Assembly (NCBI RefSeq): GCF_036013975.1
Contig: NZ_CP107904.1
Span: forward strand, 6,605,001-6,669,000
Source of the DNA: Kitasatospora sp. NBC_00458
Lineage (GTDB): Bacteria > Actinomycetota > Actinomycetes > Streptomycetales > Streptomycetaceae
Length of the DNA: 64,000 nucleotides
Direction of reading: 5' to 3'
Shown here: positions 10,587 to 35,666 of the stretch, piece by piece
Numbering within the stretch: position 1 is the first letter of the stretch
How the letters are laid out: each line of letters starts with the position of its first letter
The notes under the pieces: model-generated
Database searches by the model: none
Told to the model about the DNA's origin: nothing
Seen by the model: the letters and a program-made list of their open reading frames with translations, nothing else
Made by a program: the position numbers and the translations under genes

Positions 10587-10600
10587 CCGGGACTGACCGG
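10581..10600 (+). repeat. 10-bp tandem duplication across a stop codon
   Basis: GACTGACCGG occurs twice in tandem; the first copy contains the TGA stop at 10584-10586. Confidence 0.85.
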
Positions 10601-10642
10601 CATCAACCGGGCACCGAACCACCTGTAGGAGCTGAAACACCA

Positions 10643-11455
10643 GTGGCAGTGGCACGACGCCGACTCGACGCGGAGCTGGTCCGCCGCAACCTGGCCCGGT
10701 CCCGGGAGCACGCCTCCGAGCTGATCGCGGCCGGCCGGGTGACCGTCGGCGGCACCACCGCGACCAAGCCGGCCACCCAGGTGGAGACCTCGGCGGCGGT
10801 CGTGGTGGCCAAGGACGAGAACGACCCCGACTACGTCTCGCGCGGCGGGCACAAGCTGGCCGGGGCGTTCGTGGCGTTCGTGCCGCAGGGCCTGGTGGTA
10901 GAGGGACGGCGGGCGCTGGACGCGGGCGCGTCCACCGGCGGCTTCACCGACGTGCTGCTGCGCGCCGGGGCGGCGCACGTCCTGGCCGTGGACGTCGGCT
11001 ACGGGCAGCTGGCCTGGTCGCTGCAGAGCGACGAACGGGTCACCGTGATGGACCGCACCAACGTGCGCGAGCTGACGCCGGAGCTGATCGGCGGCACCCT
11101 GGCCGACCTGGTGGTCGGCGACCTCTCGTTCATCTCGCTGGGCCTGGTGCTGCCGGCGCTGGCCGGCTGCGCCGCCGAGGACGCGGACCTGGTGCTGATG
11201 GTCAAGCCGCAGTTCGAGATCGGCAAGGAGCGCCTCGGCAGCGGCGGGGTGGTGCGCAGCCCGCAGCTGCGCGCCGAGATGGTGCGCCAGGTGGCCGGGC
11301 AGGCGTGGGGGGTGGGGCTGGGCGTGCGGGCGGTCACCGCGAGCCCGCTGCCGGGCCCGTCCGGGAACGTCGAGTACTTCCTCTGGCTGCGGCGGGACGC
11401 ACCGCGGCTGGACCCGGCGGAGGCGGACCGGGCCGTCGCCGAAGGCCCCCGATAG
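10643..11455 (+). CDS. tlyA: TlyA family rRNA 2'-O-methyltransferase
   Basis: 270 aa, family length. TlyA methylates ribose of specific cytidines in 16S and/or 23S rRNA using S-adenosylmethionine; in mycobacteria this confers capreomycin sensitivity. An N-terminal S4 RNA-binding domain (RRLDAELVRRNLARSREHA to about residue 60) is followed by YVSRGGHKLAGAF and an FtsJ-like fold with motif I DAGASTGGFTDVLL (about residue 93). Then come DRTNVREL and VGDLSFISLGLVLP, and the tail VKPQFEIGKER. The start is GTG; the region 20 nt upstream has TAGGAGCTGAAACACC as ribosome binding site. It is 92 nt upstream of nadK in the same orientation. Confidence 0.96.
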   Translation: MAVARRRLDAELVRRNLARSREHASELIAAGRVTVGGTTATKPATQVETSAAVVVAKDENDPDYVSRGGHKLAGAFVAFVPQGLVVEGRRALDAGASTGGFTDVLLRAGAAHVLAVDVGYGQLAWSLQSDERVTVMDRTNVRELTPELIGGTLADLVVGDLSFISLGLVLPALAGCAAEDADLVLMVKPQFEIGKERLGSGGVVRSPQLRAEMVRQVAGQAWGVGLGVRAVTASPLPGPSGNVEYFLWLRRDAPRLDPAEADRAVAEGPR

Positions 11456-32844: not shown

Positions 32845-34323
32845 ATGCGTAGCAGTGGCAACGGCAGGAACAGCAGCGGCGGCGGCAGCGGTCGCGGCGG
32901 ACAGGGCGGGGGCCGGGGCGGCTCCTACGGGGGCGGCTCCGGCCGTAGCGGGTCCGACTCGCGCGGCGGCGGTTCGTACGGCGGCGGTGGCGGTTCGTAC
33001 GGCGGTGGCTCGGGCTCCTCGCGCGGTGGTTCGTACGGCGGCTCCGGTGGCGGCGCGGGCTCCTCTCGGGGTGGTTCGTACGGCGGCTCCGGCGGTGGCT
33101 CGGGTGCCCCGCGCGGCGGCGGTTCGTACGGCGGCGGCGCGGGCTCCTCGCGGGGCGGTTCGTACGGCGGCTCCGGCGGCGGCTCCGGTGCCCCGCGCGG
33201 CGGCGGCCCCTCGCGCGGTGGTGCGGGCTCCTCGCGCGGCGGTTCGTACGGCTCCGGCTCCGGCTCGTACGGGCGGGACGACCGCCGTGACGGCCGTCGG
33301 GACGACCGCAGGGACGACCGGCGTGACGACCGCCGCTTCCCCGACCGGCCGCTGCGGCCGGAGGAGCGGAAGTACGACCGCCCCGAGTTCGGCGGCGGCC
33401 CCAACGCGACCCCGGCCCGCGGCGGCTTCACCGGGCGCCGGCCGAACCCGGCCCCGCGTCCGCGTCGCGAGGGGCAGGGCGCCCCGGGTGACCCGCGCCG
33501 CCAGCCGCAGCGCTCGCGCGAGCTGCAGGCCCGGATCGAGGACGCGGTGCTCGCCCGGCACGACAAGCCGGCCGTCAAGCTGCCCAAGACCTTCGGCGAG
33601 CCCGAGGGCGAGCGGCTGCAGAAGGTGCTGGCCCGGGCCGGCATCGGCAGCCGGCGCGCCTGCGAGGAGCTGATCGAGCAGGGCCGGGTCGAGGTCAACG
33701 GCAAGCGGGTCACCGAGCAGGGCAAGCGGGTCGACGCGGAGAAGGACGAGATCAAGGTGGACGGCCTGACCGTCGCCACCCAGTCGTTCCTGTTCTTCGC
33801 GCTGAACAAGCCGGCCGGCGTGGTCTCCACCATGGAGGACCCGGACGGGCGGCAGTGCCTCGGCGACTACGTGACCAACCGGGAGACCCGGCTGTTCCAC
33901 GTCGGCCGCCTGGACACCGAGACCGAGGGCATCATCCTGCTCACCAACCACGGCGAGCTGGCCCACCGTCTCACCCACCCCCGGTACGGCGTGACCAAGA
34001 CCTACCTGGCCGCCATCCAGGGGCCGATCCCGCGCGACCTGGGCAAGAAGCTGGCGCAGGGCATCGAGCTGGAGGACGGGTTCGCCCGCGCCGACAGCTT
34101 CAAGGTGATCTCCAACGTCGGCAAGAACTACCTGGTCGAGGTGACCCTGCACGAGGGTCGCAAGCACATCGTCCGCCGGATGCTGTCGGAGGCCGGGTTC
34201 CCGGTCGAGAAGCTGGTCCGCACCCACTTCGGCCCGATCGCCCTGGGCGACCAGAAGTCCGGCTGGCTGCGTCGCCTGACCAACCCCGAGGTGGGTCAGC
34301 TGATGCGTGAGGTCGGTCTGTAG
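32845..34323 (+). CDS. RluB-type 23S rRNA pseudouridine synthase with long disordered N-terminus
   Basis: 492 aa. Isomerises a uridine of 23S rRNA, by homology the RluB/RsuA/RluE/F branch. Residues 1 to about 140 are Gly/Ser/Tyr/Arg repeats (GGSYGGSGGGSGAPRGGG); about 140-190 are Arg/Asp-rich (RRDDRRDDRRD). The S4 domain begins ERLQKVLARAGIGSRRACEE near 255. The catalytic domain has FFALNKPAGVVSTMEDPDG and the GRLDTETEGIILLTN motif with Asp near 357, then THPRYGVTKTYLA and EGRKHIVRRML. ATG at 32845 gives MRSSGNG; an in-frame TTG lies 3 nt earlier. The N-terminal half echoes the composition of the protein encoded at 2918. Confidence 0.94.
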   Translation: MRSSGNGRNSSGGGSGRGGQGGGRGGSYGGGSGRSGSDSRGGGSYGGGGGSYGGGSGSSRGGSYGGSGGGAGSSRGGSYGGSGGGSGAPRGGGSYGGGAGSSRGGSYGGSGGGSGAPRGGGPSRGGAGSSRGGSYGSGSGSYGRDDRRDGRRDDRRDDRRDDRRFPDRPLRPEERKYDRPEFGGGPNATPARGGFTGRRPNPAPRPRREGQGAPGDPRRQPQRSRELQARIEDAVLARHDKPAVKLPKTFGEPEGERLQKVLARAGIGSRRACEELIEQGRVEVNGKRVTEQGKRVDAEKDEIKVDGLTVATQSFLFFALNKPAGVVSTMEDPDGRQCLGDYVTNRETRLFHVGRLDTETEGIILLTNHGELAHRLTHPRYGVTKTYLAAIQGPIPRDLGKKLAQGIELEDGFARADSFKVISNVGKNYLVEVTLHEGRKHIVRRMLSEAGFPVEKLVRTHFGPIALGDQKSGWLRRLTNPEVGQLMREVGL

Positions 34324-34414
34324 ACCGGTCGGTATATTCGACGGACTTCCTGTAGACCGGTCTACATAATCGAGCGGATTCCATGGAGACCGGTCTGCAT
34401 ATTCGAGTGTTTCG
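34319..34414. repeat. Three 32-bp tandem repeats with AGACCGGTCT-type palindrome
   Basis: Units start at 34319 (TGTAGACCGGTCGGTATA), 34351 (TGTAGACCGGTCTACATA) and 34383 (ATGGAGACCGGTCTGCAT). The second contains a perfect 14-bp palindrome, GTAGACCGGTCTAC; the third keeps AGACCGGTCT. Each unit ends with an ATTCGA or AATCGA segment and a TTCC or TTCG tail. The first unit includes the TAG stop of the pseudouridine synthase gene. Palindromes of the TAGACCGGTCTA type are typical TetR-family operators. Confidence 0.9.
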
Positions 34415-34451
34415 TGAGGGCCTCCCCGCCGAGTGGCGGGGAGGCCCTCAC
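34414..34451. terminator. 17-bp perfect hairpin terminator
   Basis: GTGAGGGCCTCCCCGCC and its exact complement flank a 4-nt GAGT loop, immediately after the 32-bp repeats and 158 nt before the LuxR-type gene. Confidence 0.9.
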
Positions 34452-34609
34452 GCCGTTCGGCGGGTCCTGCTGTGAAGCGGGCCGCATAGCCGGGTGATCG
34501 CCTTGTCAGCGTCATGATCCGTGGCTGAAGATTGCCACCTGTCCACGACCCGCCGGGTGGCGGGACTGCGCCACCGGCGCGGGGTGAGAGGCGAACGGGG
34601 AGCGACGCC

Positions 34610-35593
34610 GTGTCCGATGCACCACTCAGCGCTCTGGGGCTGGCCGCGCCCGACGGACGGGTCTACGCGGCGCTGGTGGCCAATCCGCAGTCGACGGCGG
34701 AGGACCTCGCCGCCGTCTGCGACCTGAGCCTCCAGCAGAGCGTCCGCGCGCTCGACCGGCTGGCGCAGCAGGGCATGGCCACCCGGGCCCCGGTGGACCG
34801 GCACCGCTTCCTGCCGGTCGCCCCCGACGTCGCGATCGGCACCCTGATCGGCCACCGCGAATCCGAACTGCGCCACGCCCGGGCCGAGATGCACCGGCTG
34901 ATGGACGCCTTCCGGGAGGCCTCCAGGTACACCGACCCGGCCCACTCGGTCGAGGTGCTGACCGGCGGCGAGGCCATCGCGCAGCGGCTGGAGCACATCA
35001 CCGAGACCAGCCAGTACCAGGTCCGGGGGTTCGACTGCCCGCCGTACATCCAGGACCCGGTGGCCAACATCCCTCTGCAGCGGCAGCGGATGAAGGAGGG
35101 CCTGCGGTTCCGGACCATCTACGACCGGGAGGCCGTGGCCTGGCCCGGACGGTTGGAGAAGAACATCCTGGTCGGGGTCGCGGACGGCGAGGAGGCACGG
35201 GTCAGGCCGGTGCTGCCGATGAAGATGATCATGTCGGACGACCGGATGGCGATCATCCCGATCAGCGTGGGCGACAGCGTCCTCGACGCCGCCTACGTCA
35301 TCCACCCCTCGGCGCTGCTCCAGGCGCTGGACACGCTCTTCGAGGCGGAGTGGGAGCGGGCCGTCCAGTTGCAGGCGGCGATCGGCGCCACCGAGGAGAC
35401 ACCGGAGCCGGAGGCCGACCACCGCAAGCTGCTCGGGCTGCTGGCGGCCGGCCTCACCGACGAGTCCATCGCCCGGTCGCTCGGCTGGAGCGCCCGGACC
35501 ACCCAGCGCCGCCTGCAGAGCCTGATGCGCGAGCTGGGCGCCACCACCCGCTTCCAGGCCGGCATGGCGGCCCGGGAGCGGGGGTGGCTCTGA
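34610..35593 (+). CDS. TrmB-like / LuxR-type transcriptional regulator
   Basis: 327 aa. Residues 1-75 form an N-terminal winged helix of TrmB type (RVYAALVANPQSTAEDLAAV, LQQSVRALDRLAQQGMA). A central sensor-like domain (about 80-255) contains VEVLTGGEAIAQRLEHITETSQYQVRGFD. The C-terminal LuxR-type HTH is HRKLLGLLAAGLTDESIARSLGWSARTTQRRLQSLMREL. The arrangement is frequent in streptomycetes; ligand and targets are unknown. GTG at 34610 has GGGGAG at 8 nt. The 32-bp palindromic repeats lie about 200 bp upstream beyond a terminator. The stop codon lies within a 20-bp tandem repeat array. Confidence 0.9.
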   Translation: MSDAPLSALGLAAPDGRVYAALVANPQSTAEDLAAVCDLSLQQSVRALDRLAQQGMATRAPVDRHRFLPVAPDVAIGTLIGHRESELRHARAEMHRLMDAFREASRYTDPAHSVEVLTGGEAIAQRLEHITETSQYQVRGFDCPPYIQDPVANIPLQRQRMKEGLRFRTIYDREAVAWPGRLEKNILVGVADGEEARVRPVLPMKMIMSDDRMAIIPISVGDSVLDAAYVIHPSALLQALDTLFEAEWERAVQLQAAIGATEETPEPEADHRKLLGLLAAGLTDESIARSLGWSARTTQRRLQSLMRELGATTRFQAGMAARERGWL

Positions 35594-35666
35594 CCTGGCC
35601 GGACCCGCTCTGACCCGCCCGGACCCGCTCTGACCGGTCCGGGCCCGCTCTGACCGATCCGGGTCG
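35587..35666 (+). repeat. Four 20-bp tandem repeats starting at a stop codon
   Basis: GCTCTGACCTGGCCGGACCC-type units begin at 35587, 35607, 35627 and 35647. The first contains the TGA stop of the LuxR-type gene. GCTCTGACC is invariant and the following half varies. Confidence 0.9.

Follow-up and report, generated by a model that had tools for sequence, protein, structure and literature searches.

The 3' end of a pseudouridine synthase gene in Kitasatospora sp. NBC_00458 carries three closely spaced palindromes resembling operators of TetR-family regulators, and the question this locus raises is what such sites might be doing at the end of a gene. We analysed them within a window of 64,000 nucleotides (positions 6,605,001 to 6,669,000 of contig NZ_CP107904.1), the whole stretch of DNA under study, and traced them through this genome, which we label G000, and its relatives. 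The coordinates of the array and its neighbors, including the gene that we take to encode an RluB-like pseudouridine synthase, are given in Table 1.

Table 1. The palindrome array and its surroundings, in window coordinates.
Feature	Position	Strand	Basis or remark
Element A copy 1, operator-like	34313..34340	-	Covariance model, 28.8 bits; model built without copy 1
Element A copy 2, operator-like	34345..34372	-	Covariance model, 31.1 bits
Element A copy 3, operator-like	34378..34405	-	Covariance model, 22.0 bits
Hairpin terminator, perfect 18-bp arms (34413-34430 / 34435-34452)	34413..34452	.	Inverted-repeat search
Pseudouridine synthase gene (presumably RluB-like)	32845..34323	+	Start codon uncertain
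Downstream neighbor, by eye a helix-turn-helix regulator gene	34610..35593	+	Begins 205 bp past array

The original prediction placed three repeat copies at the stop codon of the synthase gene, and they are there: the GACCGGTC cores occupy 34323-34330, 34355-34362 and 34388-34395, and the TAG stop codon (34321-34323) falls inside copy 1, the array overlapping the 3' end of the gene. The predicted period of 32 bp describes the first interval but not the second, which is 33 bp, and TRF reported a period of 33 with 2.8 copies and 83% matches; the copies are 70% and 82% identical to one another, indicating that the spacers are not repeated. The middle copy is a perfect palindrome, as had been predicted, but of 16 bp (34351-34366) instead of 14 bp, and the terminator said to end the array is present with arms one base longer than the 17 bp that had been given. 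Calling the outer copies decayed was inapt for copy 1, whose GACCGGTCGG form recurs at the same place in three other genomes (G017, G064 and G077). The array sits between the stop codon and the terminator that closes this 3' region, and is thus no promoter site; it does not include the second palindrome, B, described below, and we saw no sign of it serving as an operator of the downstream gene. From the stop codon of that downstream gene runs a 20-bp tandem repeat, GCTCTGACCGGTCCGGACCC (3.8 copies, 35587-35662), which holds one exact GACCGGTC; neither this repeat nor its GACCGGTC was seen downstream in 10 relatives, several of whose stretches perhaps end before the homologous spot.

A search of the 8.01-Mb genome for the 12-mer TAGACCGGTCTA with at most one mismatch, a check proposed with the original prediction, found 43 places compared with 2 for a reversed control, 9 of them exact and the matches grouped in intergenic arrays, which argues that the window copies are not there by chance. 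Aligned genomic matches define element A as an imperfect palindrome of about 26 bp, GAATATGTMGACCGGTCTACAKATTC, and at a threshold of 18 of 26 matching positions 16 stretches of this genome hold at least 54 copies (0 in a shuffled control), a count that takes in both halves of a long inverted duplicate described below. A covariance model trained on 49 genomic copies from outside the window recovered all three window copies on the minus strand. Sequence analysis of this genome thus describes A as dispersed intergenic palindromes in clusters, with about 17-20 arrays or single sites on the chromosome, and the window array is not unique but one member of this family. Among the matches listed, the highest A count belongs to this genome, the covariance-model counts being per strand and, for strongly amplified genomes, lower bounds. 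The idea that the window spacing sets the palindromes on one face of the DNA fits the 32 and 33 bp found there but does not extend to the family, in which spacings of 18, 22, 27, 43 and about 105 bp occur. Base pairing between the arms of A (68.7%) is lower than in shuffles (71.1%), indicating that what has been kept is the DNA sequence rather than an RNA hairpin, and we ruled out the RNA hairpin reading on these grounds. A 20-base pattern had no matches in viral contigs, where a phage origin was sought.

Several features of individual A sites were also recorded. From match positions, the sites look denser between positions 4961000 and 6640000 of the chromosome (G000:C1) than in the rest of it. 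Triple A arrays occur in frame and stop-free in two paralogous PKS genes (L036:1822-1907 and 10593-10678, near G000:C1 1215320 and 1224091), where they encode repeated VDRS units, seemingly in a dehydratase-domain loop as judged by eye. At another locus (L048:1556-4348), two IS5-type transposase genes lie between near-identical direct repeats, each of which contains an inverted A pair and part of a B.

The identity of A as a regulatory site emerged from its occurrences elsewhere. An exact-pattern scan of 84,980 species returned 25 stretches. Of these, 19 bear Kitasatospora or Streptomyces names, and the other six come from Nocardia (3), Nocardiopsis (2) and a myxobacterium (1). All six of these loci from outside the Streptomycetaceae adjoin the same type of TetR gene, and there is usually an extra A copy before the next gene, a member of the NAD-epimerase/SDR family. 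Footprinting across 31 orthologous loci (30 Kitasatospora, one from another family) put A immediately upstream of the TetR start codon in all but one of them, and between the TetR and epimerase genes wherever the epimerase gene is seen (27 of 27 loci). Outside the Streptomycetaceae and in most Kitasatospora, A occurs in one or two copies. In G000, A ends 4 bp before the start codon of the TetR gene, whose product (P0001) matches the LmrA/YxaF C-terminal domain of Pfam (PF21993) at 94.2 bits, against a cut-off of 27, and YxaF itself (PDB 1sgm) at 4.6e-29. Given its position just before the TetR start and before the neighboring epimerase gene, A is very probably the operator of this LmrA/YxaF-type TetR. 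Per-position information in 191 amplified copies and in 53 TetR-locus copies from non-amplified genomes correlated at r 0.86, a value inflated because one template was used to pick both sets.

G000 encodes P0001 twice, in identical form, and neither gene lies in the window. It had been said that no TetR gene is adjacent to the array, and this is correct, the cognate genes being at G000:C1:392668 and 7981640 and the window at 6605001-6669000. The two copies lie in a long inverted duplicate carrying the TetR gene with its A sites (L035 and L049; G000:C1:391600-398500 and 7977000-7984000), the halves of which are at unequal distances from the two chromosome ends. The call of a TetR-type palindrome is thus strongly supported, by 30 of 31 TetR loci and by all six outside matches, and the suggestion of an operator cluster or decoy array was apparently the right kind of answer. 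Placement in the promoter of a gene to be controlled is seen at the tetR and epimerase loci only, and not at the window array with its 3'-end position.

That position is typical of the family. In the fetched loci there were 63 clusters of A, of which 24 were in tandem gaps, 21 in convergent gaps and 11 in divergent gaps, with 2 intragenic and 5 at stretch ends; for genomes other than G000 these came from best-ranking matches only, and genes were called with a simple codon-bias script, no standard gene finder being used. Convergent gaps were enriched (21 of 56 clusters, compared with 25 of 149 for the remaining gene pairs in these loci; p 0.0025), and 21 of the 24 clusters in tandem gaps were closer to the 3' end of the upstream gene. 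Arrays of A are found preferentially at the 3' ends of genes and in convergent gaps and not at promoters.

In many arrays a second palindrome, GCGCAGGAAGTCGGCNGGTCCGACTTCCTGCGC, lies between the A copies. This element, B, seen at L045:1265-1680 and at many other loci, is a 33-bp hairpin palindrome with the core AAGTCGG-N5-CCGACTT. Arrays in other genomes alternate A with B, often with an A-to-A distance near 104-108 bp, and tandemly duplicated A-B units can be made out in the arrays; B is also often solitary, and sometimes it forms arrays with a period of about 100 bp. It is abundant, with at least 45 matches (from 45 to at least 101), in 25 Kitasatospora genomes, 11 of which do not encode the TetR, and B is accordingly independent of that regulator. 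No other palindrome was found between the B elements of TetR-lacking genomes at five loci, and compensatory changes in the B hairpin showed no excess over shuffles. We infer that B is a separate, older hairpin repeat.

Amplified A is found together with the TetR gene. With the TetR called at E 1e-40, A at E 1e-3 and amplification defined as at least three A matches, the TetR is present in 32 of 70 genus genomes and A in 27; A is amplified in 12, all 12 of which encode the TetR, and 37 of the 38 TetR-lacking genomes have no A, the other one (G001) having a single match. Across the family, strong A matches occurred in 16 of 394 genomes, 15 of the 16 in this genus. A tree of 26 genomes, made from rluB, the next gene and one further gene (G068, with no rluB match, was left out), places TetR-lacking genomes at three positions among amplified ones: G012 beside G055 and G083 (support 96), the group G060, G007 and G082 (support 100), and a larger group with weak support (60). 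Parsimony on this tree gives three changes of the TetR. Among the 24 tips that bear B, A is amplified in 12 of 13 with the TetR and in none of 11 without it (Fisher p 9.6e-6, which ignores relatedness), and all 11 of the latter keep B. Losses of the TetR seem to number at least three, which is few, and each has left a lineage without amplified A.

Loci sampled by their best B matches, blind to A, gave a similar picture, with 29 A copies in 8 of 40 loci from TetR-encoding genomes and none in 40 loci from TetR-lacking ones. Two genomes, G006 and G068, encode the TetR and have many B, yet show 2 and 0 A matches at E 1e-3, which means that possession of the TetR does not suffice for amplification; G068 has at least 82 B matches, and a simpler letter match finds one A at its TetR locus. 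At the two loci inspected in TetR-lacking G012, the orthologous gaps are short and devoid of A, whole arrays being missing and not decayed, which suggests that loss may be by deletion. A search for decayed operators in the rluB spacer found a best match of 14 of 26 in G006 (shuffle p 0.015 among 65 genomes), a result that is suggestive only.

The original prediction counted a lack of palindrome conservation in relatives among what would refute it. All but one of the 70 genus genomes matched the C-terminal part of rluB, 65 of these 69 entered the comparison, and an array does occupy the window array's spot in 5 of the 65 genus members. The five arrays have 3, 3, 4, 5 and 6 copies and differ in their spacers, and overlap of the first copy with the stop codon is seen in four of them. 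Several other array positions are conserved between species, but positions are shared in part only. In the best-aligned orthologous arrays, from pairs among G055, G083 and G008 at a convergent 'agmatine' locus, cores were kept while spacers diverged: core identities were 1.00, 0.95 and 0.95, compared with spacer identities of 0.68, 0.52 and 0.55. At a second locus the core identities were 0.90, 1.00 and 1.00 and the spacer identities 0.69, 0.61 and 0.65. Summed over all pairs at six loci the contrast was weaker (core 0.84, B 0.75, spacer 0.66); it was reversed at the divergent locus of G017 and G018 (core 0.57, spacer 0.81), absent at the alr locus of G000 and G064 (0.64 for both), and at the rluB locus of G000 and G021 the values were 0.83 and 0.85. 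All of these alignments were anchored on the elements themselves.

The explanation we favor, and judge reasonably probable, is that the window array is a set of three binding sites for the cell's own LmrA/YxaF-type TetR, P0001, forming a selected platform away from promoters. A would have started out as the operator for autoregulation of the TetR gene and for control of the neighboring NAD-epimerase/SDR gene, and in one Kitasatospora clade it would have been amplified into non-promoter positions (3' ends, convergent gaps, and in frame inside PKS genes), often interleaved with B. Selection would maintain A sites only in lineages that still have the TetR, and TetR dimers on the arrays would act as a platform that holds the repressor, as a sponge, and/or blocks read-through at 3' ends, a role in keeping with where the arrays lie. 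That A sites are bound by the TetR is very likely, and we consider it fairly probable that the arrays are under selection, although no one function that we can propose for them would rate quite as an even chance. A sponge that tunes the epimerase gene makes little sense where that gene was not seen beside the TetR gene, as in G000, G064, G018 and G068, and in G000 the combination of two TetR copies, the largest A count and no adjacent epimerase gene argues against a sponge with this role only. On a more tentative reading, the arrays may, in this genome with no epimerase target beside the TetR gene, be the main job of the TetR, as a transcription barrier or in chromosome organization.

Other explanations draw on some of the same observations. 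A, together with B, could be a selfish palindrome of the REP or MITE type that the TetR tolerates or helps to spread and that has no host function, and the alternating A/B arrays at many sites, the tandemly duplicated A-B units and the in-frame copies in two PKS modules, where palindromic mobile elements can insert, speak for this. A search of G000 for the Y1/RAYT-type transposase PF01797, as a source of RAYT/REP mobility, found no match, however, whereas 5 of 14 control genomes were positive. The absence of this transposase, and of amplified A from all 11 TetR-lacking genomes of the clade that retain B, make a selfish repeat less likely; cores kept in best-aligned orthologous arrays with diverged spacers, and the one- or two-copy operator outside the clade, also count against it, and we regard it as unlikely. 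Simple slippage, a duplication that contains palindromes by chance, had been raised as a possibility and would account for three copies at a near-equal period. This was already contradicted by the genome-wide dispersal of A, and it is very hard to reconcile with unrepeated spacers, copy identities of 70% and 82%, and orthologous arrays that vary in copy number and spacers between species while keeping their cores; we give it almost no weight.

Two further readings accept A as an operator and differ over its use. The view that the arrays are ordinary promoter operators, each controlling the adjacent gene as in a classical TetR regulon, is favored by the sites at the tetR and epimerase starts, which are of this kind, and by the 11 of 56 clusters in divergent gaps, but 21 of 56 clusters are convergent, 21 of 24 tandem clusters hug an upstream 3' end, and the window array itself is bounded by a stop codon and a terminator, making this improbable. 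The TetR might alternatively be an architectural protein whose sites organize the chromosome or cell division. Dozens of palindromic non-promoter sites for a TetR-family protein, several of them in arrays at positions conserved across species, are consistent with this, and precedents are described in reports on SlmA (24-52 sites; PMC3573117) and RefZ (5 sites; PMC6657595), but since array positions are shared between species only in part we hold it to be rather unlikely as well.

Our preferred reading, a selected platform of TetR sites, has points in common with several known systems. LmrA/YxaF (QdoR) of Bacillus subtilis belongs to the same protein subfamily as P0001 by Pfam and PDB matches, and PMC8481877 describes a single operator upstream of qdoR and two upstream of qdoI, an autoregulated gene with an adjacent metabolic gene, as at the Kitasatospora TetR/epimerase loci; Kitasatospora differs in having dozens of extra sites outside promoters. 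SlmA of Escherichia coli is a TetR-family protein with tens of dispersed sites (SBS) and a role outside gene regulation, according to PMC3573117, whereas the Kitasatospora sites are in arrays with B hairpins and the TetR, which is not known to be linked to FtsZ, keeps its autoregulatory operator. RefZ of Bacillus, as presented in PMC6657595, is a TetR-family protein with conserved near-palindromic chromosomal motifs (RBM), five and fixed, compared with at least 54 sites in G000 and fast turnover between species. At the sequence level, the combination known from SlmA and RefZ, a TetR-family protein with many dispersed non-promoter sites, is found here; neither protein is named among the 15 PDB sequences listed for P0001.

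REP and BIME elements are short palindromes in intergenic arrays, with inverted pairs and mosaics of two palindrome types, and are associated with RAYT transposases. The Kitasatospora A/B arrays resemble them in being intergenic palindrome arrays with inverted pairs and a two-palindrome mosaic. They differ in that G000 has no Y1 transposase and A is a probable operator that tracks the presence of its regulator, and the compensatory changes that preserve hairpins were seen in neither element, A pairing being below shuffles and B showing no excess.

TetR proteins with dispersed non-regulatory sites and mosaic palindrome arrays are thus already known; what appears to be new is a local repressor's operator that has been amplified across a clade and is missing where the regulator is missing. 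The accessible portions of the literature that we searched gave no description of the A family; the letters AGACCGGTCT do occur in one actinomycete paper (PMC4595836).

It is possible, and we put it forward tentatively, that in this clade a local TetR repressor has turned into a chromosome-wide repeat-binding protein, with selected A-B arrays at gene ends that vanish when the TetR does. The genus offers a natural series of single operator, amplified operator, and regulator lost with its sites, with B as a built-in control, and so makes it possible to trace what becomes of binding sites once their protein disappears. The finding makes it testable whether non-promoter operator arrays are repressor sponges, read-through barriers or chromosome landmarks, and, if true, it would reveal a route from a local repressor to a genome-wide DNA-binding protein.
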